DNA from: Pseudomonas sp. R5-89-07
Lineage (GTDB): Bacteria > Pseudomonadota > Gammaproteobacteria > Pseudomonadales > Pseudomonadaceae
DNA: 64,000 nt
Reading direction: 5' to 3'
NCBI RefSeq assembly: GCF_003851685.1
Contig: NZ_CP027727.1
Location: 3,782,001-3,846,000, forward strand
Shown here: in pieces, positions 6,568 to 48,847 of the stretch
How positions within the stretch are numbered: the stretch's first letter is position 1
Layout: each line of letters begins with the position of its first letter
Made by a program: the position numbers and the translations under genes
The notes under the pieces: model-generated
The model's input: the letters and a program-made list of their open reading frames with translations, nothing else
The model's database searches: none
Told to the model about the DNA's origin: nothing

Positions 6568-6601
6568 AAGGCGGCAATGGCCCGGGGCCGCTTCGCGCCC
6601 C

Positions 6602-6626
6602 AGCGGGAGCAAGCTCCCTCGCCACA
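6602..6626. repeat. REP palindrome, GGGAGCAAGCTCCC family
   Basis: A single Pseudomonas REP unit with the core GGGAGCAAGCTCCC followed by TCGCCACA. It lies 35 bases after the second glycosyltransferase gene. The rest of 6568-6977 holds no gene; apart from this unit it contains the DUF6124 leader. Confidence 0.8.
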
Positions 6627-6799
6627 GGGGATGACCGGCGTGGGAACGATCCGCTAGCTGGCATTTCGTCATGACTTGTAAAGGGCCAGCAAGCCACATC
6701 TCTTTAAATTGCAGGACGTTTCCGAGACAATCCCCGCCGCCTTGTGCCGGTTGGAATCGGTGGCTAGTCTGCGGTCCGTCACTGCTCATCAGTGATCGG

Positions 6800-6939
6800 G
6801 TTTAGTCGCTCGGCATGTCACAAGGCGCATGGTCACATGGAGTTTTATGGTGGCTGTGCGCAGGGCGCCTTCGGGCGCGCCGGATTTCCTTGTGGCCGGT
6901 CGACTAACCTGCGTACAGCCGCCACCTTCGTTTAGTCGC
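6800..6939 (+). promoter_or_regulatory. structured leader upstream of the DUF6124 gene
   Basis: The region can fold into a branched RNA. The outer helix pairs GGTGG (6849-6853) with CCACC (6922-6926) and CTGT (6854-6857) with ACAG (6915-6918). The next helix pairs CGCAGG (6859-6864) with CCTGCG (6908-6913). Inside are a GCGCC-TTCG-GGCGC hairpin (6865-6878) and a CCGG/CCGG stem (6880-6883 with 6896-6899). The ten bases GTTTAGTCGC occur at 6800-6809 and again at 6930-6939, flanking the element. It ends about 40 bases before the start codon, suiting a 5' leader. Function is unknown; base pairing is read by eye. Confidence 0.5.
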
Positions 6940-6977
6940 GAAAGGCGTTGGCTCCGATACTCACAAGGAGTTACACC

Positions 6978-7286
6978 ATGAACAAAGTCATCCCCGACCC
7001 ACCCCTCGATCCCGCCAAAGACCGTGCCGCGTTCAACCGTGCCATCGACCATTATCTGCCCACCCAAGGCTTCCACAGCGTCAATGAAGACTTGAGCTTC
7101 GAAGATGCCCTGCTCTACACCGCCAGCTTGCTCGACAGTGCTTCAGCGACGGCGCTCGATTGTGGGGAGCTGCTGAGCAGCCCGGAGCGGGCGAAGATTC
7201 TGGCGGTGTGGCATTTGCTGGAGATCGCCAAGACCACCGTGGATCGCTCCATCGAGTGCATAAGGCCGTTGAAAACAACCTCATAA
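6978..7286 (+). CDS. DUF6124 family small protein
   Basis: A 102-residue soluble, acidic, mostly helical protein with no signal peptide or membrane segment. It has the shape of the Pseudomonas DUF6124 (formerly DUF3077) family: a PDPP motif at the start, then LLYTASLLDSAS and a C-terminal helix with AVWHLLEIAK. These proteins are common in multiple copies in fluorescent pseudomonads and have no known function. The ATG at 6978 follows AAGGAG by seven bases; the in-frame upstream ATG at 6948 lies within the leader and lacks a ribosome site. A REP unit starts directly after the stop. Confidence 0.75.
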   Translation: MNKVIPDPPLDPAKDRAAFNRAIDHYLPTQGFHSVNEDLSFEDALLYTASLLDSASATALDCGELLSSPERAKILAVWHLLEIAKTTVDRSIECIRPLKTTS

Positions 7287-7288
7287 CC

Positions 7289-7705
7289 TGTGGCGAGGGA
7301 GCTTGCTCCCGTGGGGGCGCGGAGCGACCCCGCTCTTTGTTTAAAAAGACTGGGGGCGCTGCGCGCTGCTTCTTAGCTGACGTGCGCTGATCCCACATCC
7401 TGGTTGGCTGTCAGGCCGCCATCGGGGGCAAGTCGAACCGTCGCACCGCCCCCCACATTTGGATCGCGGAGCGTCAGTTAGAGAGGCTTCGGCTGCTGAG
7501 CTGTCACAGGTTTAGGGCCGCGCTAAAGTTGTGTAGATACCTATGGCTATCGGGGCTCAATGTAGGAGCGAGCTTGCTCGCGAAAAACTTCCAGGCAACG
7601 CGTTCATTCTGGATAAACGCGGTGGCTCTGAGTTCTTCGCGAGCAAGCTCGCTCCTACAAAAAGCCTTAACTGACTGGCATTAGGGCAAGCCCCCTCCCA
7701 CATTG
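7289..7705. repeat. REP/REPIN cluster between the DUF6124 gene and the NRPS gene
   Basis: This 433-base gap has no gene. It holds a GGGAGCTTGCTCCC unit (about 7292-7315), a REPIN made of two inverted TGTAGGAGCGAGCTTGCTCGC units (7561-7584 and 7637-7660), and a half unit GGCAAGCCCCCTCCCACATT (about 7685-7705). The segment 7505-7544 (ACAGGTTTAGGGCCGCG then GTAGATACCTATG) and the run TGACTGGCATTAGGGCAAGCCCC (about 7672-7694) both recur near 52.7 kb, so the spacers as well as the palindromes are repeated. Confidence 0.8.
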
Positions 7706-7719
7706 GTTACCTTCCCCCT

Positions 7720-10700
7720 TCAGATTCGGCGTCGGCGGTTGAGGGCGGGGATGGCGGTTTCGGGTGCTTCCACACGTGGTACGTGCGCCACTGCGCGCGC
7801 CGCCAGTTGTGCCAGTGTCGGCTGGCTGAACAAGGTGCGCGCATCCACTTCCAGCCCGGCCTTGCGCAGGCGTGCCACCAGGTTGACCGCGAGCAGCGAG
7901 TGCCCGCCGAGTTCGAAGAAATGGTCGTGGCGCCCTACCCGTTCCAGCTTGAGTACCTGCGCCCAGATCGTCGCCATCAGGTTTTCCACTTCGCCTTGCG
8001 GGGCTTCGTAGGCGCGGCTCACCACGGCGTCCAGGCCCGGTTCCGGCAGGGCCTTGCGGTCGAGCTTGCCGGCCGGGTTGAGCGGCAATGCGTCGAGTTG
8101 CACGAAGGCGGCCGGCACCATGTATTCGGGTAATTGCTCCAGTACATGGGCGCGCAATGCGTCCAGGCTGGGGGCTGGCTCGCGCAGGGTGAAGTACGCG
8201 ATCAGGCGCTCGTCGCGAATCAGCACCGCCACTTCGCGCAACGCGGGATGGGCGGCCAGGCGCGCTTCGATTTCGCCCAGCTCCAGGCGCACGCCGCGCA
8301 GTTTGACCTGGAAGTCGTTGCGCCCGAGGAATTCCAGGTTGCCGTCCGGCAGGTAACGCACCACATCACCGGTGCGATACAGCCGGTCACCGGCGACGAA
8401 GGGGCTGTCGATGAAGCGTTCGGCGCTCATCTGGGGCAGGCCCAGGTAGCCACGGGCGACGCCCACACCGCCGATGTGCAGTTGGCCGCTGATGCCCATT
8501 GGCACGGGCGCGTCGTGTTCATCCAGCACATACAGGCGGGTGTTGTTGATCGCCCGGCCGATCGGCAGTTGCAGCGCGGGCACGGGCGCGCCCGGTTCCA
8601 GGGTCCATGCGCTGCTGTCCACCGTGGCTTCGGTGGGCCCGTAGACGTTGTGCAACCGCACGCCGGGCAAGCGCGCCTGCACCCCGCGCGCCAGGGCTTC
8701 GGTCAGCTCGCCACCGCCGCACAGTATGTCAGTGAGGCTGGTGCACAGGGCTGACGCATCCAATTCAAGAAACTGTTGCAACATCGCCGGCACGAACTTG
8801 ATCACGCTGATGTGCTGCTCGCGGATCAGCTGGGCCAGGTACGCCGGGTCTCGATGCCCGTCGGGCCGCGCCAGCACCAGGCGCATGCCTTGGGTCAGCG
8901 GCCAGAACAGTTCCCACACCGAACCGTCGAAACTGAACGGCGCGCGTTGCAACAAGGCGCCGCCGGGGGCCTGCGGGCACAACCGCGAGCCCCAGTGCAT
9001 GAGGTTGCCCAGGCCGCGATGTTCGATCATCACGCCCTTGGGGGTGCCGGTGGAGCCGGAGGTGTACATCACGTAGGCCAGGTGATCCACGGTCAAACCC
9101 GGCACCACGGGGTTGTCGCTGGGTGCCTGCTGCCAGGTGCATGGGTCGAAATCGATCACTGGCACCGCCACGTCTCCCACAAGATCACGGGTGGCGGCCT
9201 GTACCAGCAGCGCCACCGGTTGGCTGTCTTGCAGCATGTAGGCCAGGCGCTCGCGGGGGTAGCCTGGGTCGAGCGGCACATAGGCACCGCCTGCCTTGAG
9301 AATCCCCAGCAGGCCCACCACCAGGTCCAACCCGCGCTCGACGCACAGCGCCACCCGCGCATCGGGCTTTACGCCGCGCTCGCGCAGCTGGAAGGCCAAT
9401 TGATTGGCGCGCTGGTTGAGTTCGCGATAGGTCAGTTGCTGCGCACCCGCCTGCACCGCCACGGCATCCGGCCTTTGCTGCGCCTGGGCTTCGAACAGCG
9501 CCTGCACGGTGAGGGTGTCGGGGTAGTCGACCGCGGTGGCGTTAAAGTCCACCAGCAATGCCTGCAACTCGTGGGCGGGCAGCACCGGCACGTCGCGCAG
9601 CGCGGTGGTCGGCGCCTGTTCCAGCGCGTCGACCAGGCCGCCGAGCGCAGTCACGAGGTAGCCCAGCACGCGTTCAGCCCCCACTTTGCGCGGCGCCTTG
9701 GCCTTGAGCCGCAAGCCGCTGGCGATGTCGTCCACGGTGAGCATCAGCGGGTAACTGAGGATGTCCTCGCTGCTGAGCAAGGCGATGCCCGGCACCAGTT
9801 TCAGGTCCGGCTCGGCGCTGGTGTGACGGTAGTTGAGCAGGCTGTTGAACAGCGGCGCGGCGCTGCTGCAGCGTTGGGCCAGCGCCAGGGATGCCTGCTC
9901 ATGCGCAAGCAAGGCACTCAGTTGGGCGTGGGTGTCCGTTACGGCCTCCACCACGCGTTGCCCGGCCAGGCGCAAGCGCAGCGGCAGGGTGTTGATGAAC
10001 ATGCCCAGGGCGCGGTCTGCCCCCTCGCCGGCTTGCAGGCGACCGAGCAACACGGTGCCGAACACCACGTCATCGCGGCTTGCAACGCGGCTGAGCACCT
10101 GCGCCCACGCCAGGTGGAACAGGCTGGCGACGCTGACCCCAGAGGCGCGAGCCTGGGCCCGCAGCCGCTGGTTGAGCGAGTCGTCAACCGCCTGCACGAA
10201 CTCTTCGATTTCGGCCCGGTCTGCCTGGCGTTCCTGCAGACCGAAGGCCAGGGTCGGTGCGTCCACATCCGCCAGGCGCTCACGAAAGAACGCCTCATGC
10301 GCCGCTTGCCGCTGCGGTGAGCGGGTCTGCGCGACCACGTTGCGGTATGGCACAGGCACCGGCAACTGTGCGTGTTGCCCCAGCAGATGGGCGCGGATTT
10401 CATCCACCAGCACGGCGGTCGAGGTGGCGTCGTTGACCAGATGATGGAAGCGCAACCTGGCGACCCAGCGCGAGTGGTGCGGTTCTTCGGCGTAATCCAG
10501 GGCCATCAGCGGCGCGCGGCGCAAGTCCAGCGGCGGGGTGTGTTCATGCAGCGGTTCGACCGGCAACCGCGCTTGGCGCCACACCACTTGCATCGGCTGA
10601 TCAAGGGCATCCCACACCAGGCTGGTGCGCAGGATGTCGTGGCGGTCGATCACCTGTTGCAGGGCCTGGGCAAACGCATCCAACTGCTCGCGGCGCGCAA

Positions 10701-13700
10701 AGCTGAACAGCGCATGCTGCTGGTACGGATCGCGCTCATCGGTGATGTGGTGATAGAGCAAGCCTTCCTGCAACGGCGCCAGCGGGTAGATCTCCTGCAC
10801 GTTGGCGGCGCCACCGGGAATGCCGGCAACGATACGCTGCAGGCTGGGTTCGTCCAGATCGGCCAGGGCCAGCATGTCGGCCGTGATCCGCGTGCAACCG
10901 GCCGGGATGCGATTGGCCGGCACCGCCACTTCGCTGCCGACACTGGCCGCCGCCAGCGCTGCCAGGGTGGGCTGGCCGAACAGCACCTGCACGTCGGCCT
11001 GCAGGCCGGCTTCGCGCATGCGTTGCACCAGCTGCACCGCCAGCAGCGAGTGGCCGCCCAGTTCAAAGAAATGGTCTTGCCGGCCGACCTGTTGTACCTG
11101 CAGCAACTCGGCCCAGATCTGCGCCAAGGTGGTTTCGACACCCTCGTGCGGCGCCTCATAGCGGCGAGTGACGAAGGCCTGCTGGGTGGGTGCCGGCAGC
11201 GCCTTGCGGTCGAGCTTGCCGTTGGCGGTGAGCGGTAACGCATCAAGGCGCACGTAGGCGGCCGGCAGCATGTAATCGGGCAGCGAGGCTTGCAGGTGCG
11301 CGCGGAGGACTTCGATCTGCAGCGAATGATGCTGGATGAACCAGGCGAGCAATTGCCCGTCACGAAACTCCACTACGGCGGTTTTGATCGAGGGATGCGT
11401 CGCCAGGGCCGATTCGATTTCCCCCAGCTCGATCCGCACGCCACGAATTTTCACCTGGTCGTCATTACGCCCCAGGTACTCCAGCGTGCCGTCCGCCCGC
11501 CAGCGCGCCAGGTCTCCGCTGCGGTACATGCGGCCGCCGTTGAACGGGTCGTCGAGAAAACGTTCGGCACTCAGATCAGCGCGATTCAAGTAGCCGCGCG
11601 CCACGCCCTTGCCACCCACATACACCTCCCCCGCTGTGCCAATCGGCACCGGCCGTTGTTGCGCGTCCAGCAGGTACACGCGTGCATTGGCGATGGGCGC
11701 GCCGATGTGCAACGGCTGGCCGACGGCAACGCGCCCGGAGGTGGCGACCACGGTGGCTTCGGTGGGGCCGTAGTTATTGATCACGTCGAACGTCTGCGCC
11801 CGATTGAACCCGCGCAGGCGATCGCCGCCGATCAGCAAGGTGCGCAACGTGGGGTGCGCAAGGCGCTGGCTGAAGGCGTATTCGGCCACGGGCGTGGGCA
11901 GGAAACACACGTCCAGCGGCTGACTGCGCCACCAGTCGAGCAGCGCATCGATATCTTCCGCGCCGTCATGGGCGGGCGGCAGATGCAGGGTCGCGCCCAC
12001 GCACAGCGCAGGCCAGACCTCCCAGGCCATCGCGTCGAAACCAAACCCGGCGATACTCGCGGTGTGGCTGCCCGCGTGCAGGTCGAAGGCCTGGCAATGC
12101 CAGTCCACCAGGTTGGACACGCTGTGGTGTTCGACCATCACGCCCTTGGGCAAGCCCGTGGAGCCGGAGGTGTAGATCACATAAGCGAGGTTGGACGCCG
12201 TCACCGAGGCCTGCGGGTTGCTGTCGCTGCCGGGGTCGCTGGAAGGTTCCAGCACAAGCACCGGCACCTCCAATGCCGGCAGGCGATGCAGTAAGTCGTG
12301 TTGAGTCAGTACCGCCACGGGCGCGCTGTCGTGCAGCAAGTAATTCACGCGTTCGGCGGGGTGCGCCGGGTCTATCGGCACATAGCAAGCGCCGGCCTTG
12401 AGCACCGCCAGCAACCCCGCCAAGGTCTCCAGGCCGCGCCGCGCCAGCACCGCCACGCGGTCATCCGGCTGCAGGCCATGGGCCAACAGTCGATGGGCCA
12501 ACGCATTGGCTTGGCTGTTGAGCTGGGCGTACGTCAACTGCCGCCCCTGGTATACCGCCGCGACGGCCAGCGGTGTGCGCTCGGCTTGCGCCTCGATACG
12601 CCCGTGCAGGGTCTGCGGTGTGGCATTGGGTTGAGCGGTGGCGTTCCATTGCTGCAACCGGGCCCGGTCCCGCGGCGTCAACAAATCAAAGTTGCCCACC
12701 GTGAGCGTGGTGTCGGCCAGGCCCTGCTCCAACAACCCGGTCACGCACTGCGCCAACACCTGCACTTCGCTCTGCTCAAAGTACGCCTGGTTATAGACGC
12801 AATGCAGGCACGCGGTGTCCTGGTAACGGTTGCTGCGCAAGTGGATCGCGATCGGCAGCGGCTCATGGTGGTTGGACACCTTGACCGCCCGGGCCTGCAC
12901 CTGGTCGTAGCGCAGGTCATGGTCGTCCTGCTCGAACGACACCGACAGGTCGAACAACTGGCCGCGGTCCGTACGCCGCAGTCCCAGCTCGCGGTTCATC
13001 TCGCTCAAGGGGAAACGCTGGTGGCGAAAGTCCTGCTTGAGCTGGTCACGCACCCCGCGCACCAACTCGCTGAAACTCATGGCCTCGCTGAACTGCAAAC
13101 GTACCGCGCTGACCTGGGCGAACAAGCCGACCGTGGACCGAAAACGCGCGTTGGAGCGGTTGAGAATCGGCAGCCCCACCACCCACTCATCGCGCTGGCT
13201 GGTACGGGTGAAATACACATACAACGCCGCCAGCAACACATGGAACGCCGACGCCTGGTATCGGTTGGCGACCTGTTCCATACGGTTGAGCAGCGCCACC
13301 GGGAAGTCTTGCACGAAGGTGTTGCTCGCAGCCTTGGCGGTGTGCCTTGGGCTGAGCAGCGGCTCGGGCAACGCCTGGTATTTGGCCAGCCAATAGTCAC
13401 GATCGCGGGCGTAGCGGGCCGATTGCAGGTAGCGCTGGTCGGTGTCGATAAAGTCGACATAAGACGGTGCCAACGCTTGCGTTTGCCCGCCGCGCTGCAG
13501 GGCGGTGTACAGCTGAGCAAGGGATTGCAGCATCTGGCCGAACCCCCAGCCATCGAGGATCAGGTGATGGGCCTGGGTGCCGAGGCGGTAATGATCGTCG
13601 TCGAGCTTGACCAGGAAAAACCGAAACAGTGGCTCGCCGCTCATTGCGTAGGGCCGGGCCATTTGCGCCTGCATCAAGGCCTGGGTAGCGGCCTCGGGGT

Positions 13701-13992
13701 CGGGCAACGCGCAGAAGTCGTATTGCGGCACGTCCACCGTCCATTCGGCGGTGAAGGTTTGCCGGGGCACGCCATTGGCGTCGCTGTGCAGCTGGGTACG
13801 CAATGCATCGTGCCGGGCCACCAGCAGCTCGACCGCGTGCTGGATCGACTCGGGTGCGATGGCGCCGGCCAGATCAACATAGCCGCCGATGTTGTACAGC
13901 GGCGAATCGCCCGCGCGTAGTTGGTCGAGCCAGATGTCCTGTTGTGCGGCGGTGAGGGGGAAGCTGGCCGGCAGACTGGAAAGTTGCGTCAT
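7720..13992 (-). CDS. two-module NRPS, lipopeptide initiation synthetase (viscA/massA type)
   Basis: The 2090-residue protein reads C-A-PCP-C-A-PCP with no thioesterase. C1 (about 1-430) has HHLILDG near 141 and sits at the extreme N-terminus, as in fatty-acyl starter domains. A1 has TSGSTGLPKG near 610 and NYGPTEAT near 742; its pocket residues read D-A-W-F-L-G-N-V-V, the known leucine code. PCP1 has LGGHSLL near 979. C2 carries HHLVNDA instead of HHxxxDG near 1184. A2 (TSGSTG near 1645, YGPTEAT near 1785) reads D-G-W-K-L-G-V-V-D. PCP2 lies near 2032. A two-module Leu-Glu starter beside luxR and a NodT channel is the layout of viscosin-group loci, where later synthetases lie elsewhere. ATG 13992 follows GAGAAGGATC. 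Confidence 0.93.
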   Translation of the reverse strand: MTQLSSLPASFPLTAAQQDIWLDQLRAGDSPLYNIGGYVDLAGAIAPESIQHAVELLVARHDALRTQLHSDANGVPRQTFTAEWTVDVPQYDFCALPDPEAATQALMQAQMARPYAMSGEPLFRFFLVKLDDDHYRLGTQAHHLILDGWGFGQMLQSLAQLYTALQRGGQTQALAPSYVDFIDTDQRYLQSARYARDRDYWLAKYQALPEPLLSPRHTAKAASNTFVQDFPVALLNRMEQVANRYQASAFHVLLAALYVYFTRTSQRDEWVVGLPILNRSNARFRSTVGLFAQVSAVRLQFSEAMSFSELVRGVRDQLKQDFRHQRFPLSEMNRELGLRRTDRGQLFDLSVSFEQDDHDLRYDQVQARAVKVSNHHEPLPIAIHLRSNRYQDTACLHCVYNQAYFEQSEVQVLAQCVTGLLEQGLADTTLTVGNFDLLTPRDRARLQQWNATAQPNATPQTLHGRIEAQAERTPLAVAAVYQGRQLTYAQLNSQANALAHRLLAHGLQPDDRVAVLARRGLETLAGLLAVLKAGACYVPIDPAHPAERVNYLLHDSAPVAVLTQHDLLHRLPALEVPVLVLEPSSDPGSDSNPQASVTASNLAYVIYTSGSTGLPKGVMVEHHSVSNLVDWHCQAFDLHAGSHTASIAGFGFDAMAWEVWPALCVGATLHLPPAHDGAEDIDALLDWWRSQPLDVCFLPTPVAEYAFSQRLAHPTLRTLLIGGDRLRGFNRAQTFDVINNYGPTEATVVATSGRVAVGQPLHIGAPIANARVYLLDAQQRPVPIGTAGEVYVGGKGVARGYLNRADLSAERFLDDPFNGGRMYRSGDLARWRADGTLEYLGRNDDQVKIRGVRIELGEIESALATHPSIKTAVVEFRDGQLLAWFIQHHSLQIEVLRAHLQASLPDYMLPAAYVRLDALPLTANGKLDRKALPAPTQQAFVTRRYEAPHEGVETTLAQIWAELLQVQQVGRQDHFFELGGHSLLAVQLVQRMREAGLQADVQVLFGQPTLAALAAASVGSEVAVPANRIPAGCTRITADMLALADLDEPSLQRIVAGIPGGAANVQEIYPLAPLQEGLLYHHITDERDPYQQHALFSFARREQLDAFAQALQQVIDRHDILRTSLVWDALDQPMQVVWRQARLPVEPLHEHTPPLDLRRAPLMALDYAEEPHHSRWVARLRFHHLVNDATSTAVLVDEIRAHLLGQHAQLPVPVPYRNVVAQTRSPQRQAAHEAFFRERLADVDAPTLAFGLQERQADRAEIEEFVQAVDDSLNQRLRAQARASGVSVASLFHLAWAQVLSRVASRDDVVFGTVLLGRLQAGEGADRALGMFINTLPLRLRLAGQRVVEAVTDTHAQLSALLAHEQASLALAQRCSSAAPLFNSLLNYRHTSAEPDLKLVPGIALLSSEDILSYPLMLTVDDIASGLRLKAKAPRKVGAERVLGYLVTALGGLVDALEQAPTTALRDVPVLPAHELQALLVDFNATAVDYPDTLTVQALFEAQAQQRPDAVAVQAGAQQLTYRELNQRANQLAFQLRERGVKPDARVALCVERGLDLVVGLLGILKAGGAYVPLDPGYPRERLAYMLQDSQPVALLVQAATRDLVGDVAVPVIDFDPCTWQQAPSDNPVVPGLTVDHLAYVMYTSGSTGTPKGVMIEHRGLGNLMHWGSRLCPQAPGGALLQRAPFSFDGSVWELFWPLTQGMRLVLARPDGHRDPAYLAQLIREQHISVIKFVPAMLQQFLELDASALCTSLTDILCGGGELTEALARGVQARLPGVRLHNVYGPTEATVDSSAWTLEPGAPVPALQLPIGRAINNTRLYVLDEHDAPVPMGISGQLHIGGVGVARGYLGLPQMSAERFIDSPFVAGDRLYRTGDVVRYLPDGNLEFLGRNDFQVKLRGVRLELGEIEARLAAHPALREVAVLIRDERLIAYFTLREPAPSLDALRAHVLEQLPEYMVPAAFVQLDALPLNPAGKLDRKALPEPGLDAVVSRAYEAPQGEVENLMATIWAQVLKLERVGRHDHFFELGGHSLLAVNLVARLRKAGLEVDARTLFSQPTLAQLAARAVAHVPRVEAPETAIPALNRRRRI

Positions 13993-14474
13993 AAGATCCT
14001 TCTCATGGGGGTCAGGCACTGGCCGCGCAGGGTCGCCCATTACCACGAATTGCCGGATTTGAGCATGCTGATGGGGTGGCGCCTGACACCCGAAACCCGG
14101 ACATCCAAACGGATTGGGATGGGCATGACTGAGGGTTCACTGCTGAAACGATTAAAGGCTTGTAGGAAATTGGCCACACTCAGCCGACGTTAAATTTGAA
14201 AAATATTTTTAATTTTTAACATTTGCGTTTTTTATCAATGGCTTAGTCTGTGATGAACATTCAGGCATCTCCTTCGTGCAGCGAATTATCCGTAAGAAAC
14301 GTCGAATTAATGACGCGGATTTTATGGCAGCGTATGTCCCTCGTTTCCGCTACATACGTAGGATTAATCGCTATGGCTAAATGAAATCTCGAACGCCGAG
14401 TTACGTTCAAGCAGTACGGAGCGCCCCGAACAGACCGAGGGCACCCGTTGACGGTTTTCGACATCAAGGATGAG
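13993..14474. promoter_or_regulatory. divergent promoter region between NRPS and LuxR regulator
   Basis: A 482-base gene-free gap between divergently transcribed genes. Its centre (about 14190-14245) is strongly AT-rich, with A and T runs in an otherwise GC-rich area, as expected for promoter DNA. The frames that cross it on the plus strand run out of the NRPS gene and have no ribosome site. I could not identify a specific LuxR box. Confidence 0.5.
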
Positions 14475-15275
14475 ATGGCTATGAGTCTGACCCGTAGTAT
14501 TGCCGACACCCAGAGCCCACAGTTCTACGCCGAAATGGGCGAGCTGATTTCAAGCAGCGGCCAGGCACATTTCGCCGCCAACATGCTGCATCTGGTGGAC
14601 AAATGGATACCGATTCATCTGGTGGACCTCAGCGAGTGGAGCCTCGATGAACTGCGTGACAGTGTTCTGGACATCAAGCTGCTTGGCAGCGCCGGCCTGA
14701 ACAATGATCTACCCGCGCCCCAGACCCTGCATTCGCTCAATGACCATCCCCTGCTGCAACAGATGCTGCGCATGCAGGACCCGCTGTTGATCCAGATGAA
14801 AGCCAAGGCCGACAGCGCGCACCCGCGTGGCAGTTCGCACCAGTGCAACCTGGTCTCGCGCCAGGGTCATCGGCGCTGCGTGATTTCGCTCTACCGTCCG
14901 CCTGCCGAACGTGGGTTTTCCCTGGTTGAGCTGTCGTTTCTCAAATGCCTGTCCGACACCTTGCTTCCGCTGATGGAGCGGCATGTGCAGTTGCTGCGCC
15001 AAGCGCCGCACGCCGAGGTGGAACCGGGGCAAAACGTGCTGGAGCAATCGCAATTGCAGCGTGAGTTCTACAAGCGCCTATCGCTGAGCGACATCACGCT
15101 TTCGGCACGCGAGCAGGAAGTCTGCCTGGGCCTGTTGACGGGCGGCACCGTGCCGCAGATCGCGGAAAAACTCAGTGTGAAAAACAGCTCGATTGAGACC
15201 TACCTCAAACGCGCGGCCGCCAAGCTCGGCGTGAGTGGCCGACACGGCCTGGCCAAATGGATGGTGGGCGCCTGA
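14475..15275 (+). CDS. LuxR-family transcriptional regulator of the lipopeptide locus
   Basis: The C-terminal 60 residues form a LuxR helix-turn-helix ([16 protein letters not shown], then [26 protein letters not shown]). The N-terminal 200 residues show no recognisable acyl-homoserine-lactone domain, as in the LuxR regulators that flank Pseudomonas lipopeptide synthetases. It probably activates the divergent NRPS gene and the overlapping channel gene. Starts at 14475 and 14481 share the AAGGA at 14466-14470; TTG at 14448 is less likely. The stop overlaps the next start by one base (TGATG), indicating coupling. Confidence 0.85.
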
Positions 15276-16699
15276 TGCACAAACGGATATTCACCGCCGT
15301 TGGCGTGGCCTGGATGCTCGGCGGGTGTTCGCTGATTCCTGAATACCAGCGGCCCGACGCGCCAGTGCCGACGCACTATCCCCAAGACGGGGTTTACCGC
15401 CAGGCGCAGGCCGGCACGCTGCCCCAGACATCTGATTGGCAGCAGGTTTTCCACGACGCAGCCCTGCAGCAGTTGATTGACGCTGCATTGGTCAACAACC
15501 GTGACCTGCGGGTTGCGGCGCTGAATGTGCAGGCGTTCCAGGCGCAGTATCGCATCCAGCGCGCCGACCTGTTCCCGGCGGTGTCCGCCACGGGGGCCGG
15601 CAAACGCCAGAAGTTGCCGGGGGCCGTGACTGGCACCGGCCAGTCGGCGATTACCTCAACCTATTCGGCGACCCTGGGCCTGAGCGCCTATGAACTGGAC
15701 CTGTTCGGCCGCGTGCGCAGCCTCAGCGAACAGGCCATGCTGACTTACCTGAGTACCGAGCAAGCCCGGCGCAGCACACAATTGAGCCTGGTGGCCAACG
15801 TCGCCAACGCCTACCTGACGTGGCGTGCCGACCAGGAGCTGCTGGCCCTGGCCGCGCAGACCCTGGCCGCCAACGACCACAGCTGGCAGCTGACACGCCG
15901 CAGCCAAACCGCAGGCAAGGCCTCGGCCCTGGACGTGGTACAAGCACGCACCGCAGTGGAAAGTACCCGCGCCAGCGTGGCCCGCTACGAGCGCCAGGTG
16001 GCCCAGGACCTCAACAACCTCACCCTGCTGGTCGGCGGCCCGGTGGATGCCGACCTGCCCTCGCGTCCCCTGTCCGACGATCTGCTGGCCCGCGTGCCTG
16101 CGGGGCTACCCTCAGACCTGCTGCAACGGCGCCCGGACATCCTCCAGGCCGAACTCCAGTTGCAGGCGGCCAACGCCAATATCGGCGCGGCCAGGGCGGC
16201 GTTCTTTCCGTCGATCACGCTAACGGCCAACGCCGGCAGCACCAGCACGCAACTCTCGGGGTTGTTCAAGGGTGGCGCGGGCACCTGGACGTTTCAGCCG
16301 CAGATCAACCTGCCGATCTTCAACGCCGGCAGCCTGCGCGCCAGCCTTGACTACGCCAAGCTGCAGAAGGACATCACGGTGGCGCAGTACGAAAAGTCCA
16401 TCCAGACCGCATTTCAGGAAGTCGCCGATGGCCTCGCGGCGCGCCAGACCTTCAACGAGCAGCTGGCCGCACAAAGGGACTTCGTCGCCGCCAACCAGCG
16501 CTATTACGACCTGGCCCAGCACCGCTACCGCAGTGGCGTCGACAGCAACCTGACCTTTCTCGATGCGCAGCGCTCGTTGTTCAGTTCACAGCAGGCGCTG
16601 ATTGTCGATCGACTGGCGCAACTGGTCGCGGAGGTGAATGTGTATACCGCGCTGGGAGGTGCGTGGAGCGAGCCACCGGGTCTGGCGATCACGCGTTAG
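15275..16699 (+). CDS. NodT/OprM-type outer membrane efflux lipoprotein
   Basis: This is a TolC-like outer membrane channel of the NodT lipoprotein class, 474 residues. The signal peptide ends in a lipobox MLGGC with the acylated Cys near residue 18. Two internally repeated OEP regions follow, with the usual [12 protein letters not shown] and [26 protein letters not shown] type motifs. In known lipopeptide clusters such a gene sits next to the first synthetase and is thought to pair with MacAB exporters, which are not in this window. The ATG overlaps the luxR stop. Its own stop codon shares bases with that of the converging gene at 16696. Confidence 0.88.
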
Positions 16700-43358: not shown

Positions 43359-43985
43359 TTACTGTGACTGCAGACCCGCCGCCGTGCGCGGCATGCCGAC
43401 GAAACCCGGCAGGGCTTCAATGCTGGCGAGCCAGGCGCGCACTTGAGGATAGTCGGCCAGCGACACATTGCCTTCCGGCGCATGGGCTGTGTAGGTATAG
43501 AACGCAATATCGGCAATGCTCGGCTGCTCGCCGGCCAGAAAATGGCTTTCGCCCAGTTGCTGCTCCATCACGTTCAGCAGTGCATGGGCGCGGTTGATGG
43601 CGAGGCCCGCGTCCACGTCGGCACCAAACACCGTGGCCAATCGCGCCGTGGCAGGCCCGGTATGCAACTGACCGGCCGCCGCCGAAAGCCAACGCTGCAC
43701 CCGTGCCTGCCCGACCGGGTCTGTGGGCAGCCACTGGCCGTTGTCGTAGGTGGCCGCCAGGTAGACCAGGATGGCGTTGGAGTCTGCCAGTATCGTCCCG
43801 CCATCGTCGATCACGGGCACTTGGCCGAAGCGGTTAAGGGTGGTGACGAATTCGGGCGATTTATGCGCGCCTTGCTTGAGGTCCACCAAGATAAATTCCA
43901 TGGGCAGGCCCAGCAGGGACAGCATCAGCTCGACCCGATGGGAGTGGCCGGACAGGGGGAAACCATACAGTTTGATTGCGGGCAT
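43359..43985 (-). CDS. glutathione S-transferase family protein
   Basis: A 208-residue cytosolic GST. The thioredoxin-like N-terminal domain shows IKLYGFPLSGHSHRVELMLSLLGL, a RFGQVPVIDDG cis-proline loop and ILADSNAILVYLA for the glutathione gamma-glutamyl contact. The all-helical C-terminal domain includes QPSIADIAFYTYTAHAPEG. It is the first gene of a GST-LysR-LysR operon, a common arrangement in which the GST is induced by an electrophile. ATG 43985 begins the family's normal N-terminus. Confidence 0.88.
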   Translation of the reverse strand: MPAIKLYGFPLSGHSHRVELMLSLLGLPMEFILVDLKQGAHKSPEFVTTLNRFGQVPVIDDGGTILADSNAILVYLAATYDNGQWLPTDPVGQARVQRWLSAAAGQLHTGPATARLATVFGADVDAGLAINRAHALLNVMEQQLGESHFLAGEQPSIADIAFYTYTAHAPEGNVSLADYPQVRAWLASIEALPGFVGMPRTAAGLQSQ

Positions 43986-44067
43986 GACGGACTCCAGGGC
44001 GTTGTCGACCGAATATCGTGTCGATGACTGCAATGTTCTTATGTACCAACCGTCAGTGGAATTACCA

Positions 44068-44099
44068 GATTGTACAATCCAGCATTTCATCTAATGAAA
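44068..44099. promoter_or_regulatory. palindromes upstream of the GST-LysR-LysR operon
   Basis: Two inverted repeats lie 83-114 bases upstream of the GST start: the perfect 12-base palindrome GATTGTACAATC (44068-44079) and TTTCAT-CTA-ATGAAA (44085-44099). The second has the T-N11-A symmetry of LysR-type sites. Both are good candidates for binding by the LysR proteins of the operon. Confidence 0.5.
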
Positions 44100-44126
44100 C
44101 AATAATGCGATTCCGCACTGACGCTG

Positions 44127-45374
44127 CTAGTCGGCAGCCAAATATGCGCCCTGCAATTCGAGCGTGCGAATCCTGCGGTAATCCGCCTCGATCACTACTG
44201 GGTCGGCATGAACCAGATACACCGTGCCCGGCTGACTGAATACATCCTGAGTTACACCTATCGGCTGGCCGCTTTCAACGTAAAACACTGCCTCGAAAAA
44301 CGACTCAAGCTTGAGCAGTTGCTGCAAAAAACCATCCTTTTCGAAACGGCCCTCTGAGCGGTTGATCAAGCAAACGTTGTAGGTATGTCGCAGACGCCGA
44401 TAATCAACCTTACTCGCCAACCGTTGCTGAAATACCTCCGGCTGCAGGAGGGATAAAACCACTGCGTCGATCTGCCCAAGGCCGGTAGTTTTCCTTGAGA
44501 CGTCTGGTCGAAGAATGCCGTCGGTACGGGCGGCAATTTCCACCAATTTCGGCCCGTCTTCGGTGAGCATTATTTCCGCATGGCTGGGACCGTTTTGAAT
44601 GCCGAGACACCGCACCACTGCTCGCGTGTAGTCGACGAGCACTGCATAAAACGGTGAATCGGACCCCATCAGTTCATCGATGTCGTAGAGAATGCCGCCG
44701 GTCGACGTCCGCTGCTTTTGGTAACGTACGACTTCGGTAACAAGCTGTTGCCCGTTGAGGGAGACCATATTCACCACATACTCCAGCCCCGCCAGGTATT
44801 CCTGAATGAGGATCTGGGTGTTAGGAATATTCAACTTATTGGTCGTCCCCAATAGACGCTGCGCAGCAGCCTTGCAGGCGTGCCTATCTTCACAGATAAA
44901 CACACCATCGGCGCCTGCGCTTTCGAGGGGTTTGATGACCACCGGAAAACGTCCGTGCTCATCAATCCAATGTTGAGCATCCTCCCAACAGCCAGCAATG
45001 AACTGCCGTGCAGCCGGCAATTGCGCCTGGGTTATGCACTGGATCATTTCGTACTTGTTTCGTCGCGCGTTGGTTTTGTCAAAATGATTGCGATAAGGCA
45101 GTTGCAATCGCTCATTCAGATGGTCAGCCAGGAGCACACCCGTTTCTGCGCCTGCAAGGATGAACTGCGGTTTGAAGCGTTGGACTTTCGCCAAAGTCGC
45201 TGCAATGTCACTATTGACGATCATCTGCTCATAGAGCGCACAGTCAAAGCCCTTGTAATAGTAGCTATCAAACATTTCTGATGAAGCCACATGCACCAGT
45301 ACGCAGCCTTCATCCTTTAATCGCTTCGCCAAGAACTTTCCGGATGAAAACCCATCGACCATGACGACTCTCAT
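44127..45374 (-). CDS. ATP-grasp ligase (L-amino acid ligase type)
   Basis: A 415-residue ATP-grasp enzyme. The N-terminal MVDGFSSGKFLAKRLKDEG resembles the opening of BacD/RizA-type L-amino acid ligases that make dipeptides. The ATP-binding core has PVVIKPLESAGADGVFIC near 150 and HAEIMLTEDGPKLVEIAARTDG near 275 with the metal-binding acidic residues. It is the last gene of the four-gene low-GC operon and overlaps the exporter gene by four bases (ATGA). The likely role is joining an unusual amino acid to another amino acid; substrates are unknown. Confidence 0.8.
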   Translation of the reverse strand: MRVVMVDGFSSGKFLAKRLKDEGCVLVHVASSEMFDSYYYKGFDCALYEQMIVNSDIAATLAKVQRFKPQFILAGAETGVLLADHLNERLQLPYRNHFDKTNARRNKYEMIQCITQAQLPAARQFIAGCWEDAQHWIDEHGRFPVVIKPLESAGADGVFICEDRHACKAAAQRLLGTTNKLNIPNTQILIQEYLAGLEYVVNMVSLNGQQLVTEVVRYQKQRTSTGGILYDIDELMGSDSPFYAVLVDYTRAVVRCLGIQNGPSHAEIMLTEDGPKLVEIAARTDGILRPDVSRKTTGLGQIDAVVLSLLQPEVFQQRLASKVDYRRLRHTYNVCLINRSEGRFEKDGFLQQLLKLESFFEAVFYVESGQPIGVTQDVFSQPGTVYLVHADPVVIEADYRRIRTLELQGAYLAAD

Positions 45375-46288
45375 ACAACCTCCCTTTCCAATGCATGCAA
45401 TGATCTACCCAACAGCAAAAAAACAATCACAGTAACCGCTGCGACGCTGGCGACGGAAAATTCAACTCTCGCATCCATGTACTGGAGCAACAAGACAAAT
45501 ACAGGAAGCGTCAGCAATACCAGTGAAACGTGAATAGGCGTGAGGTAATAGATAGTTTTCTGGATCAGGTAAATGGGCAGCAAATGCCCTAACACTACCA
45601 GCACCGCCATAGACGGAATCAATTCACGATCAAGTAAAAAACTGCCCCCCGTAGCAGGAATTGCAACGGCACAAACGCCAACCATTGCGATGTTCCTAAT
45701 ACCCAGAATTTCGTAGACAGACCACTGGCGAGCGAACATTTCCTTGGAAAAAACCGTGTATATGACCGTGCCCAACGCACACGCCAATATGCTAGCAATA
45801 CCCAGCGCCCGCTGCCCATCGGTGGTGGTGACTACACCGCTGTCCCCCATAAAGGAATTGAACAACATGATCGCTACCGAGATAAGCACTAGCCATGAAA
45901 CCAACGCATCCGCGAGCGCAACCTGGACGCTACGTTTGTTAAGCCACGAAATAATCAACGTGAGCGCAGGACCACAGGCTACCGAGGCGACCCCGACTAC
46001 GGCAGGTTCCAAGTAACGCAGTGCATAGAACAGCCCGCCCCAATTGAGTAAAACCGCAAGATTGACCATAACGACCAATCGCCATTGGGCGCTTAATTTT
46101 GAACACACTGAACGCGTATTTCGAAAGAACGCCCAAGCACCAAAAAAACAGGCTGACGTGATGAAACAATAAAAGATAACGTTCAGCGTGCTGATAGATT
46201 GGGTGATCAACGCGACATAGACGTCGAACGCCGCGCTGATCAAGCAAAACACCAAGCCGATGATCAACCCGGTGCGTTGCATTACCAT
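45371..46288 (-). CDS. DMT-family (EamA-like) exporter
   Basis: A 305-residue protein with ten hydrophobic helices in two repeated halves, the drug/metabolite transporter fold. The first repeat contains NLAVLLNWGGLFYALRYLEPAVVGVASV, the second YLIQKTIYYLTPIHVSLVLL. Such proteins export amino acids and small metabolites, so it is the probable export or self-protection gene for the product of this operon. Two ATGs (46288, 46282) are possible. It lies 28 bases after the phosphoribosyltransferase gene and shares the low GC of the operon. Confidence 0.8.
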   Translation of the reverse strand: MVMQRTGLIIGLVFCLISAAFDVYVALITQSISTLNVIFYCFITSACFFGAWAFFRNTRSVCSKLSAQWRLVVMVNLAVLLNWGGLFYALRYLEPAVVGVASVACGPALTLIISWLNKRSVQVALADALVSWLVLISVAIMLFNSFMGDSGVVTTTDGQRALGIASILACALGTVIYTVFSKEMFARQWSVYEILGIRNIAMVGVCAVAIPATGGSFLLDRELIPSMAVLVVLGHLLPIYLIQKTIYYLTPIHVSLVLLTLPVFVLLLQYMDARVEFSVASVAAVTVIVFLLLGRSLHALEREVV

Positions 46289-46316
46289 TTAACCACCCGC
46301 GCACGCTCGACTGTTT

Positions 46317-46877
46317 TCATTCAATGCTCACCCCGCCTTCGCTAACCGTCACTTTCATAATTGTTTTAACGGTAAGTCCCGTCGCTCTCTTTACATTATC
46401 CGCCCCACCGTTTCCAACCTTCTCTACAGCGCATACGATGTCTACCAATTCACCCCCAGCCGCTTTTACAGCCTCGACCAACGCAATGACCGCACCACCA
46501 GAACTTAATGTGTCATCTATAATAATGACTCGATCACCTACCTCTACTCCATTGAGATAGAGCTGCCCTTGAAAATATTCCGATTCAATAACAACCACTT
46601 GCTCATTGAGACCACCAAGACTATAGGAATACCACCTCGCTATGGCTAAGGGAATGCCTGTTAACAGAGAGATAGTGGTCGCCAGTGCCACACCCTTATC
46701 CTCCTCTGTGACAATTTTCGAGATATCATGACTCATTACCTTGATTACTTTATGAGCAACCTCCATTAGAACTTCTGGCCGCAATGCAGGTATCTGATCA
46801 GTAAACTCATTCACGGTGGTGAGTGATTTTCCTGACCATACGACGTTGGCTTTTCTATAAATCTCTTCCAGCAACAT
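46317..46877 (-). CDS. type I phosphoribosyltransferase (adenine PRTase-like)
   Basis: A 186-residue PRTase. The PRPP-binding motif VIIIDDTLSSGGA is at 117-129, and TEEDKG at 57-62 stands where APRT proteins carry EARG. The hood and loop residues around 81-95 (RWYSYSLGG) differ from housekeeping Apt, so the acceptor base may not be adenine. It sits inside a biosynthetic-looking operon rather than near purine genes. ATG 46877 follows GAGGTGA and overlaps the PLP enzyme gene by 23 bases. Confidence 0.8.
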   Translation of the reverse strand: MLLEEIYRKANVVWSGKSLTTVNEFTDQIPALRPEVLMEVAHKVIKVMSHDISKIVTEEDKGVALATTISLLTGIPLAIARWYSYSLGGLNEQVVVIESEYFQGQLYLNGVEVGDRVIIIDDTLSSGGAVIALVEAVKAAGGELVDIVCAVEKVGNGGADNVKRATGLTVKTIMKVTVSEGGVSIE

Positions 46878-47826
46878 AGTTCACCTCACTGTACTCAGGA
46901 TAAAGCCCATCCCAACGGCTCGCATACTTCCACGAACTGTCAAAAAACACGGTAACTATGGTCTTGTTTTTGAGCGTTCGAACGAGCTCATCACACATCA
47001 GCAGGTTAGCGCCACAGGTTGGTCCGATGGGGAGCTTTTCTGCCTTAATGAAATGTTTCATTCGAGACCACGCGTCAGCGCCATCAATCACTCTTACCTC
47101 ATCAACTAAATCGGGAACAGTATTAGGCGACATTACGCCCGCGCCTAGCCCCATTAGATTGTGGGGGCGATGATTAAACGGCAGCTTATTTCTCTGCGAG
47201 AACAAAGGCGCAGAACTGTTAACTTCCAACGCTATCGTTTTAATTTCGTCATACGCGTGCTTTAACGTCTCAGCAATACCAGAGAATGTGCCCCCTGTGC
47301 CGATTGAACACACAAAAAAATCGGGTGCGATGTTCTGCACACTTAACTGTCTAATTATTTCACTACCACAGCCCCTCCAACCGTCTTTATTCAACAAACA
47401 ACTGGACTGATCCAGATAATAGCAATTCTCAGACGAGTTTTCCGACAAATAAGCTTTCGCCTGGAACACTGAACCCGACAAGAACAATTCTTTTGGAGTT
47501 TCTACTATTTCAGCATTATAAGAGCGTATCTGCGCTTTCCGCTCCTCAGTCATACCTTCAGGCATAAATATCTTTACTTTATAGCCTTTTAATCTGCCGA
47601 TCCAGGCCAGTGCGGCGCCTCCATTCCCAGTAGAGCAGTCAATCAGCGTCATACCCGGCGTAATAATTCGAGCTTCTTCCAGTCGGCTCACAATATTTAG
47701 ATACGTTCGATCCTTATGACTTCCGGAAGGATTCAGAAACTCGCATTTGGAAAAGACCCTATTCCCATTTTCGGAAAGCGTCGCCAATTCAACTAGCGGT
47801 GTATTGCCAATATCCTTCAGCTCCAT
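46855..47826 (-). CDS. cysteine-synthase-like PLP enzyme
   Basis: A 323-residue fold-type II PLP enzyme. The Schiff-base lysine is residue 38 in NPSGSHKDR, STGNGG at 65-70 binds the substrate carboxylate, and GTGGTFSG at 176-183 holds the PLP phosphate. It resembles cysteine synthase and the relatives that make beta-substituted alanines such as diaminopropionate for natural products. It is unlike housekeeping CysK/CysM in its extended middle region. ATG 47826 follows AGGGG and begins MELKDIGNTPLVEL; TTG 47832 is possible. First gene of the operon, about 45% GC. Confidence 0.82.
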   Translation of the reverse strand: MELKDIGNTPLVELATLSENGNRVFSKCEFLNPSGSHKDRTYLNIVSRLEEARIITPGMTLIDCSTGNGGAALAWIGRLKGYKVKIFMPEGMTEERKAQIRSYNAEIVETPKELFLSGSVFQAKAYLSENSSENCYYLDQSSCLLNKDGWRGCGSEIIRQLSVQNIAPDFFVCSIGTGGTFSGIAETLKHAYDEIKTIALEVNSSAPLFSQRNKLPFNHRPHNLMGLGAGVMSPNTVPDLVDEVRVIDGADAWSRMKHFIKAEKLPIGPTCGANLLMCDELVRTLKNKTIVTVFFDSSWKYASRWDGLYPEYSEVNYVAGRDL

Positions 47827-48052
47827 TTCCAAGCCCCTGCGCCCTTTGTGGTAGCTGTAGACGCTAGCAAATCACCTGAAAAAATAATAGCTAGCAAAAC
47901 GGATAGGTAGGCACGGGCAAAATACCCATTTATTCATTTGGACAAATATATGTAAGAACTTCCTGTCAGAACGCCCACAAACTACGTCAGGGTTTAATTA
48001 TTAATACACACGCCAAAGACTTTTCCTACAGCACTTGCAACAACATCGCCAT

Positions 48053-48847
48053 TCAAGCGCGCTCTTCCAACCGTTCCCGCAAAAACCGATGACTGCGCGA
48101 AAACAACCGCCGATACGTCAGCAGCACTGCCCCTACCGTGCCCAACGCCGATGCCGCCGCGATCAAAAACATAATCACGATCTGATACCGCACCGCATGC
48201 ACCGGGCTTTCCCCGGCCAGCACCTGGCCGGTCATCATGCCGGGCAGGCTGACGATGCCGACTACGGTCATTTGGTTGAGCGTGGGGATCATCCCGGCGC
48301 GCACGGCCTGGCGGATGGCTTGCTGCGCCGCTTCCCAACGCGAGCCGCCGAGGGCCAGGATCATCTCGATGGTGTTGCGACCCGCGGCCAGTTCCTGGGT
48401 CATGCGCTCTATGCCCAAGGAAACGCCGGTCAGGGTGTTGCCGAGGATCATGCCGAGGATCGGGATCGCGTACTGCGGTTCATACCAGGGGTGGATGCGG
48501 ATCACAGCAAACAGGCCCACCGCCGTGACCAGCCATGAGCTGCCCCACACCGACACAATGCTGTCGACGCGCTGGCCCCGATAGGTACGCCGCCCACGCC
48601 CCGCCGCCGAGAGACCGGCGATCAGGGTCATGGCGCACATCAGCGGCAGTACCACGTACCAATAGGCGAACGCGAACACCCAGCCCAGCAGGTAACCGAT
48701 CGCCAACAGTTGCACCACGGTGCGCACCGCCGCCCACAGCAATTGGCGCTCCAGGCCCAGGCGCAACAGCAGTGACAGCGCGCCATTGATCAGGATCAGC
48801 GAGGCGGCGATGGCCATGTCCAGCGCGGTCAGGTTTTGATAATTCAT
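48053..48847 (-). CDS. FetB-like ABC export permease
   Basis: A 264-residue multi-helix permease of the FetB/YbbM family, which with FetA exports iron in E. coli. It shows LIAGLSAAGRGRRTYRGQR, GMILGNTLTGVSLGIERM and LPGMMTGQVLAGESPVHAVRYQI, all typical of the family. It overlaps the ATPase gene by four bases (ATGA). The GC-rich composition returns here, marking the right border of the low-GC island at about 47.9 kb. Confidence 0.85.
   Translation of the reverse strand: MNYQNLTALDMAIAASLILINGALSLLLRLGLERQLLWAAVRTVVQLLAIGYLLGWVFAFAYWYVVLPLMCAMTLIAGLSAAGRGRRTYRGQRVDSIVSVWGSSWLVTAVGLFAVIRIHPWYEPQYAIPILGMILGNTLTGVSLGIERMTQELAAGRNTIEMILALGGSRWEAAQQAIRQAVRAGMIPTLNQMTVVGIVSLPGMMTGQVLAGESPVHAVRYQIVIMFLIAAASALGTVGAVLLTYRRLFSRSHRFLRERLEERA

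Follow-up and report, generated by a model that had tools for sequence, protein, structure and literature searches.

A four-gene operon in a Pseudomonas genome as a candidate minimal pathway for making and exporting a small amino-acid compound

The 6-thioguanine cluster ycfABCD of Erwinia amylovora is a small operon for an exported antimetabolite and encodes an ATP-dependent enzyme, a phosphoribosyltransferase (PRT), a PLP enzyme and a permease. Its enzymes are of the PP-loop ATPase and cysteine-desulfurase types, whereas the operon studied here has an ATP-grasp and a CysK-type enzyme. The likeness between the two is one of logic. PMC5663808 treats ycfA, and PMC5589413 carries the cluster in its reference entries. 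The dapdiamide cluster (dda) of Pantoea resembles the operon in having an ATP-grasp ligase from the same broad family and a CysK-superfamily PLP enzyme, there located beside SbnB, and it is likewise compact, but plasmid-borne. Its 11 annotated features include SbnB, DdaG, a dioxygenase and an NRPS gene but, unlike the operon, no PRT. Membership of the dapdiamide type was rejected, as the operon ligase scored 244 bits against the NF041595 cut-off of 840, the ligases fell in separate clades and the PLP enzymes were 21% identical. The D-cycloserine cluster (dcs) is not known to have a PRT. The tied Z scores in the fold list of the PLP enzyme give no sign of a specific kinship with it.

The window (the whole analysed stretch of 64,000 nucleotides from Pseudomonas sp. 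R5-89-07) carries the operon on the minus strand from 47832 to 44127, in the order PLP enzyme, PRT, EamA exporter and ATP-grasp ligase. The PLP enzyme ORF (46855..47832, PALP family) encodes 325 aa from a TTG start; an alternative in-frame ATG at 47826, the start taken in the earlier note on this DNA, gives a form of 323 aa, whose residue numbering is used here. It is followed by a type I PRT (46317..46877, Pribosyltran family), a 305 aa EamA/DMT-family exporter (45371..46288, EamA family) and an ATP-grasp amino-acid-ligase-like protein (44127..45374, ATP-grasp_4 family). The ORF coordinates confirmed the layout described in that note, with four same-strand genes, overlaps of 23 and 4 nt and one gap of 28 nt, and supported its view that they form one operon. 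The GC content of about 45% given there held for the PLP enzyme (45.7%) and PRT (45.3%) genes but was too low for EamA (49.5%) and the ATP-grasp gene (52.3%).

Comparison with the empty site of a relative (G017) placed the operon within an insert of 3,954 bp (44105..48058), which is replaced in that genome by 7 nt. The two flanking genes, both on the minus strand and outside the operon, adjoin each other there: a GST-like gene (43359..44090) and a FetB-like permease gene of the UPF0014 family (48053..48847). The insert has a GC content of 48.7% against 62.7% in the remainder of the window and was the lowest of all 3,954-bp segments taken at 500 bp steps, the next lowest outside the region being 57.1%. 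This is a clean insert between fetB and the GST gene, with the four genes probably acquired horizontally. The border search showed no tRNA and no convincing repeat, and there was no integrase gene among the ORFs of the insert. Carriage of the set by plasmids was rejected after no match was obtained at E ≤ 1e-60 among 72,556 plasmid records, and carriage by phages after the 119 viral-contig matches to the pattern included no related locus. One Streptomyces plasmid that was searched lacked a PLP gene of the operon kind.

The four-gene set was sporadic, occurring within the genus in 6 of 398 genomes and within the family of a Photorhabdus genome in 8 of 295. All four genes were present in the same order in 20 of the 24 distinct loci examined, with varying flanks. 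The earlier note had suggested a search for this neighbourhood in other genomes; homologues were not scattered without synteny, and since the order persists at loci with other flanks, the grouping goes beyond chance. Matches to the enzyme pair were named for proteobacteria, actinobacteria, cyanobacteria, myxobacteria and clostridia. In Streptosporangiaceae the PLP enzyme and PRT are fused as one protein, and such fusions accounted for 35 of 120 proteins among the matches listed. Because of these fusions, and because two loci retain the PLP–PRT pair without the ligase, the two enzymes are, judging from gene arrangement, a unit and the putative core of the set. The PRT thus has a real partner in the PLP enzyme; the earlier note had suggested that it may perform a nucleobase- or ribose-linked step. 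The EamA identity matrix tracked that of the ligase (r=0.969), and the ligase with its matching exporter probably forms a second, replaceable module. A YggS-type PLP-binding protein accompanies the set in some species. No title or abstract opening in our literature search, which had most subscription papers outside its reach, described the four-gene set.

The PLP enzyme is a fold-type-II member of the CysK superfamily with the catalytic Lys and the substrate loop present; Lys38, Ser65, Gly67, Asn68 and Gln140 were invariant in 54 rows. In the tree, 33 operon-type rows were split from 29 CysK/CysM-type paralogues at 100/100, although the program flagged long branches. The enzyme thus stands in its own clade and not among the housekeeping paralogues, and it scored under the NCBIfam cut-offs of cysK (191/351 bits), cysM (144/394 bits) and cysKM (200/344 bits). 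A comparison with SbnA, DdaB and CysK had been suggested earlier. The SbnA profile gave 123.5/350 bits, far under its cut-off, and the family scan of the four operon genes and four flanking genes showed no SbnB partner, so membership of SbnA was rejected; identity to a DdaA-type enzyme was 21% across 185 residues. O-ureidoserine synthase, CysK and cyanoalanine synthase were tied in the fold list, which therefore does not choose among them. Besides this one, the genome encodes four members of the CysK superfamily.

The earlier note had taken the ligase for a BacD type. An ATP-grasp enzyme resembling amino-acid ligases was indeed found, but its nearest family was NF005543 (PRK07206), whose cut-off it exceeded (498.5 vs 302 bits), followed by DdaF as second NCBIfam match, the latter under its cut-off. 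Its closest solved structure was 30vh, an 'L-amino acid ligase', at 280 bits, compared with 39 bits for BacD. Glu267, Glu279 and Arg283 were invariant in 12 rows. The operon-type ligases formed one clade (100/99) apart from the DdaF rows against which they were compared.

The PRT retains the PRPP motif IIIDDTLSSGG, and Asp27 and Lys61 were present in 121 of 121 rows and Lys153 in 120 of 121. The Asp27 column is non-discriminating, as Apt-like rows have Asp as well. Lys153, on the other hand, occupies the column of Lys156 of the Bacillus subtilis xanthine PRT, a residue that we take to have a functional role, while all 14 Apt-like rows have Leu there; the "adenine" label is therefore doubtful. 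By analogy, this column argues against adenine as the substrate, and the pocket looks 6-oxopurine-like rather than adenine-like. Apt-like rows have RK where the operon PRT has an ARWYPY-type stretch. Scores were under the cut-offs of the Apt profile TIGR01090 (40/186 bits), the xanthine PRT model TIGR01744 (46/164) and HPT_Archaea, the archaeal hypoxanthine/guanine PRT model and second NCBIfam match (147 bits, cut-off 200). By sequence, xanthine PRT was among the best PDB matches, next to two adenine/guanine PRT entries. The subfamily model PRK02304.1-4, named adenine PRT, was narrowly missed (141/146 bits), and two relatives of the PRT (P0200 and P0208) exceeded it. The PRT did exceed NF009211 (PRK12560, named adenine PRT) with 239.5 bits against a cut-off of 188. 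This model matched in 167 of 249 phylum genomes, many of the matches being sub-cut-off and in genomes with Apt, and it was over the cut-off in 1 of the 249 and in 0 of 14 controls. That rarity suggests a model built on operon-type PRTs, so its name says little about the substrate, and 'adenine phosphoribosyltransferase' may mislabel this PRT family.

On balance, the operon is probably a minimal pathway, spread by horizontal transfer, that makes a small amino-acid compound for export, with an antimetabolite dipeptide as its most likely product. Fold and conserved residues suggest that the PLP enzyme would convert serine, O-acetylserine or a related compound to an aminoacrylate and add a nucleophile to it. 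The resulting β-substituted alanine may be derived from a purine. The PRT, whose partnership with the PLP enzyme is shown by synteny and fusion, would supply or process that nucleophile; a purine-type base released by it may be captured directly by the PLP enzyme. From its family, the ATP-grasp enzyme would then join this amino acid to a second one, and EamA would export the product, probably an antimetabolite. EamA proteins export diverse substrates. The word 'antimetabolite' is an analogy, since the operon contains no resistance gene or target copy. A conserved PLP–PRT pair is hidden beneath two housekeeping names. If this pair produces a nucleobase amino acid or another unusual one, that would be a new biosynthetic reaction and a compact four-gene route to a small antimetabolite, without an NRPS and easy to express. 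A more specific version is tentative and rather unlikely: the PRT and PLP enzyme as a two-active-site unit, in which a base freed from a nucleotide by reverse phosphoribosyl transfer would meet aminoacrylate to give a nucleobase-alanine, capped by the ligase as an exported dipeptide. PRTs usually run in the nucleotide direction, and base release would for that reason need a pull. If true, the products would be a class of bacterial antimetabolites built on nucleobase amino acids.

The usual direction, the retained PRPP motif and the close PRT–PLP pairing would suit a forward-running PRT that adds 5-phosphoribose to an N-heterocycle amino acid made by the PLP enzyme, giving a nucleotide-like amino acid. 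We consider this quite improbable, as the conserved set (the four genes, with YggS in some species) has no phosphatase or nucleotidase and EamA is unlikely to carry a phosphorylated product. Sensing of PRPP is another role of type I PRT folds, PurR being one such fold, and the operon PRT has weak PurR similarity. The PRT may be pictured as a regulatory or structural sensor of the PLP enzyme, a role with which the fusions are also compatible, the product then being a simple beta-substituted alanine, for example one of the diaminopropionate type, ligated as in dapdiamide-like peptides, in line with DdaF as the second ligase match. There is little likelihood of this, given the PRT motif residues kept in nearly all 121 rows, the lack of an SbnB-like gene in the operon and a PLP enzyme so distant from DdaA-type and SbnA enzymes. 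Ordinary metabolism, in which additional genes for cysteine synthase and purine salvage happen to adjoin those for a transporter and a ligase of no related function, agrees with the database names 'cysteine synthase' and 'adenine phosphoribosyltransferase' but is very improbable in view of the separate PLP and ligase clades, the sub-cut-off cysK, cysM and apt (TIGR01090) scores, the single phylum genome above the NF009211 cut-off, an operon conserved amid many flanks and a genome already holding four further CysK-superfamily genes.

Upstream of the operon, an element at 47861..47907 (minus strand), conserved in 8 Pseudomonas loci, is a possible operator or promoter region. In three of the eight loci (the window, L031 and L032) the repeat TTGCTAGC occurs twice in exact form, at a distance of 27 nt, and the remaining loci have variants of it. 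The element was absent beside the two other ATP-grasp clusters of the genome. A pattern search for further copies matched only the operon's own site. As the reversed pattern, used as a control, likewise gave one match, this search provides no sign of a regulon. An upstream riboswitch was rejected, as the 401 bases scanned gave no hit to Rfam at E ≤ 1. The scan for promoter-like sites gave none upstream of the PLP gene (4 found in all vs 4.9 expected). Terminator-like sites numbered 11 against 4.3 expected, and one of these (44119–44104) lies directly beyond the operon end.

The operon was encoded on the minus strand (window 47832 to 44127) and comprised, in order, genes for a CysK-superfamily PLP enzyme (GC 45.7%), a type I phosphoribosyltransferase (PRT; 45.3%), an EamA-family exporter (49.5%) and an ATP-grasp protein (52.3%). 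The positions of the ORFs reproduced the overlaps and the gap that an earlier note had described from the sequence. GC content was 48.7% in the insert holding the operon (window 44105-48058) versus 62.7% in the remainder of the window.

Related loci were located via the PLP gene, and 24 distinct loci (25 minus one repeat) were examined. The search for the neighbourhood in other genomes, which the earlier note had proposed, recovered the complete set, unchanged in gene order and strand, in 20 of these 24. Such full sets came from Pseudomonas, Photorhabdus, Yersinia similis, Edwardsiella ictaluri and Vibrio sagamiensis, among others. The four-gene set is conserved as a unit. In L073 the PLP gene was split over two ORFs and followed by the remaining three genes, and in Pantoea (L039) the contig ended after the PLP gene, with a ligase on another contig of the same genome. 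Marinomonas (L043) and Stutzerimonas (L045) carried PLP, PRT and YggS genes plus a different EamA, and no match to the ATP-grasp model NF005543 was found in either genome at E <= 1e-25. The L043 PLP gene was likewise split over two ORFs, and its YggS copy exceeded the TIGR00044 cut-off. A YggS gene also lay between PRT and EamA in three of the 20 full sets (L047, L074 and L075). Second-copy remnants were present upstream of the operon in four loci, Photorhabdus L038, L042 and L048 and also L040; at about 6300-7560 in the first three, an additional EamA together with fragments of PLP or PRT directly preceded the intact set, a pattern resembling the decay of a tandem duplicate.

The operon consists of two modules, PLP–PRT and EamA–ligase. 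Identity matrices built on 21 complete sets (the 20 loci and the window) showed a correlation of 0.969 between EamA and ligase and of 0.83–0.91 for the remaining gene pairs. In 8 of 9 Pseudomonas loci, PLP and PRT had a GC3 that was 0.10–0.21 lower than in EamA and ligase; this difference was absent in Photorhabdus and several others, and was seen in 13 of 21 sets overall (repeat L076 counted). Both Pfam domains, PLP and PRT, occurred in 35 of the 120 proteins listed, which are fusions, four of them named Streptosporangiaceae. P0270 was a further fusion in which the PRT part was detected, and PRT was N-terminal to PLP in the four fusions whose order was observed (P0117, P0118, P0242 and P0270). 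Streptomyces and cyanobacteria, for example, were named among both the unfused PLP and the unfused PRT matches. These two match lists had 29 contig sizes in common (14 under 8 kb), and equal size points to a shared contig but is no proof of one.

A housekeeping identity was disfavoured by family cut-offs and by both trees. The PLP enzyme scored far under all equivalog cut-offs among the 25 of 40 matching families listed, and 33 operon-type PLP rows split from 29 CysK/CysM-type paralogues with support of 100/100, in a tree for which the program warned of long branches. The operon ligases formed a clade (100/99) apart from seven very long-branched references, which included both DdaF and two more ligases of the own genome. 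Both enzymes fall outside the housekeeping or DdaF rows with which they were compared; a place inside housekeeping clades was what the earlier note had named as speaking against its reading. For the PRT, the label adenine phosphoribosyltransferase, given by the NCBIfam model NF009211, is a weak indication of function: the cut-off was passed in 1 of 249 phylum genomes (the own genome) and 0 of 14 controls, with 167 of the 249 matching in all. PRT relatives from Ruminiclostridium, Paenibacillus, Acinetobacter and one Streptomyces also passed it. The label, which thereby extends to P0200, P0162 and P0208 from the first three genera, may be wrong for operon-type PRTs.

Alongside the established gene order, conservation, fusion, residues and insertion, the operon most likely encodes a route in which the PLP enzyme and PRT would form a β-substituted alanine, the ligase would join an amino acid to it and EamA would export the ligated product, with a biological role likewise inferred. 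In a bolder and less probable reading, the PRT would free a purine-type base for capture by the PLP enzyme, and a nucleobase-alanine would result. A similar small operon logic (ATP-dependent enzyme, PRT, PLP enzyme and exporter) is found in Erwinia amylovora, in its 6-thioguanine operon. The titles and abstract openings returned by a literature search did not describe the four-gene set; because most subscription journals fall outside its coverage, this silence is a weak sign of novelty.

The operon was rare, being found in 6 of 398 genus genomes sampled, own genome counted (E <= 1e-75), in 8 of 295 genomes from the family to which a Photorhabdus genome belongs (E <= 1e-75) and, in a phylum sample of 398 genomes, in the own genome only (E <= 1e-70). 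Plasmid records gave no match at 1e-60, and no relative was found in viral contigs.

In the relative G017 (locus L132), fetB adjoins the GST gene. Since similarity between the window and L132 stopped at 44104 and restarted at 48059, with 7 nt in between, 3,954 bp were either gained in the window or lost in G017. Ahead of the 44104 end point, window 43977-44056 did not align to L132. The operon-bearing segment is a clean insert; no tRNA and no convincing border repeats were seen at it, and no integrase gene lay within it. The GST-side site was common to several Pseudomonas loci and not to others. The presence of fetAB in the flank upstream of the operon varied among loci: it was retained in the window and L034 and partially deleted in L033, whereas only short remnants were left in L031 and in L032. 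In L069 it was not seen, and it was absent from the stretch of L131 read.

A conserved element directly upstream of the PLP gene was common to eight Pseudomonas loci; three had an exact TTGCTAGC repeat pair 27 nt apart, and the other five had variants. It was not seen ahead of the other 17 loci read, three being Pseudomonas. With up to 3 mismatches, its first half matched the own genome at the operon site only, and the reversed control gave one match.

The own genome held a further compact ATP-grasp cluster (L126 6561-12215, in C1:4929000-4948000), with an ATP-grasp protein that scored 372 bits and so exceeded the cut-off of NF005543, a class-V-type PLP enzyme that matched EgtE/SufS weakly, a hydroxylase close to the model for the guanitoxin L-arginine gamma-hydroxylase (330/380 bits) and an exporter judged MFS-like by eye. 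In a third cluster (L127 5898-10710, in C1:4292000-4311000), a PRK07206-type ATP-grasp scored 257 bits, under the cut-off; its neighbours, by eye, resembled an MFS exporter, a protein with a cupin end and one of Rieske type, and two neighbours had no NCBIfam match. Elsewhere in the window, a two-module NRPS (7720-14046) had two condensation, two AMP-binding and two carrier domains and no thioesterase match. Beside it lay a regulator of the LuxR family (14448-15275) and, at 15257-16699, an outer-membrane efflux protein. A C4 antisense RNA (Rfam RF01695, 85.6 bits), of a family known from phages, lay at 6843-6929.
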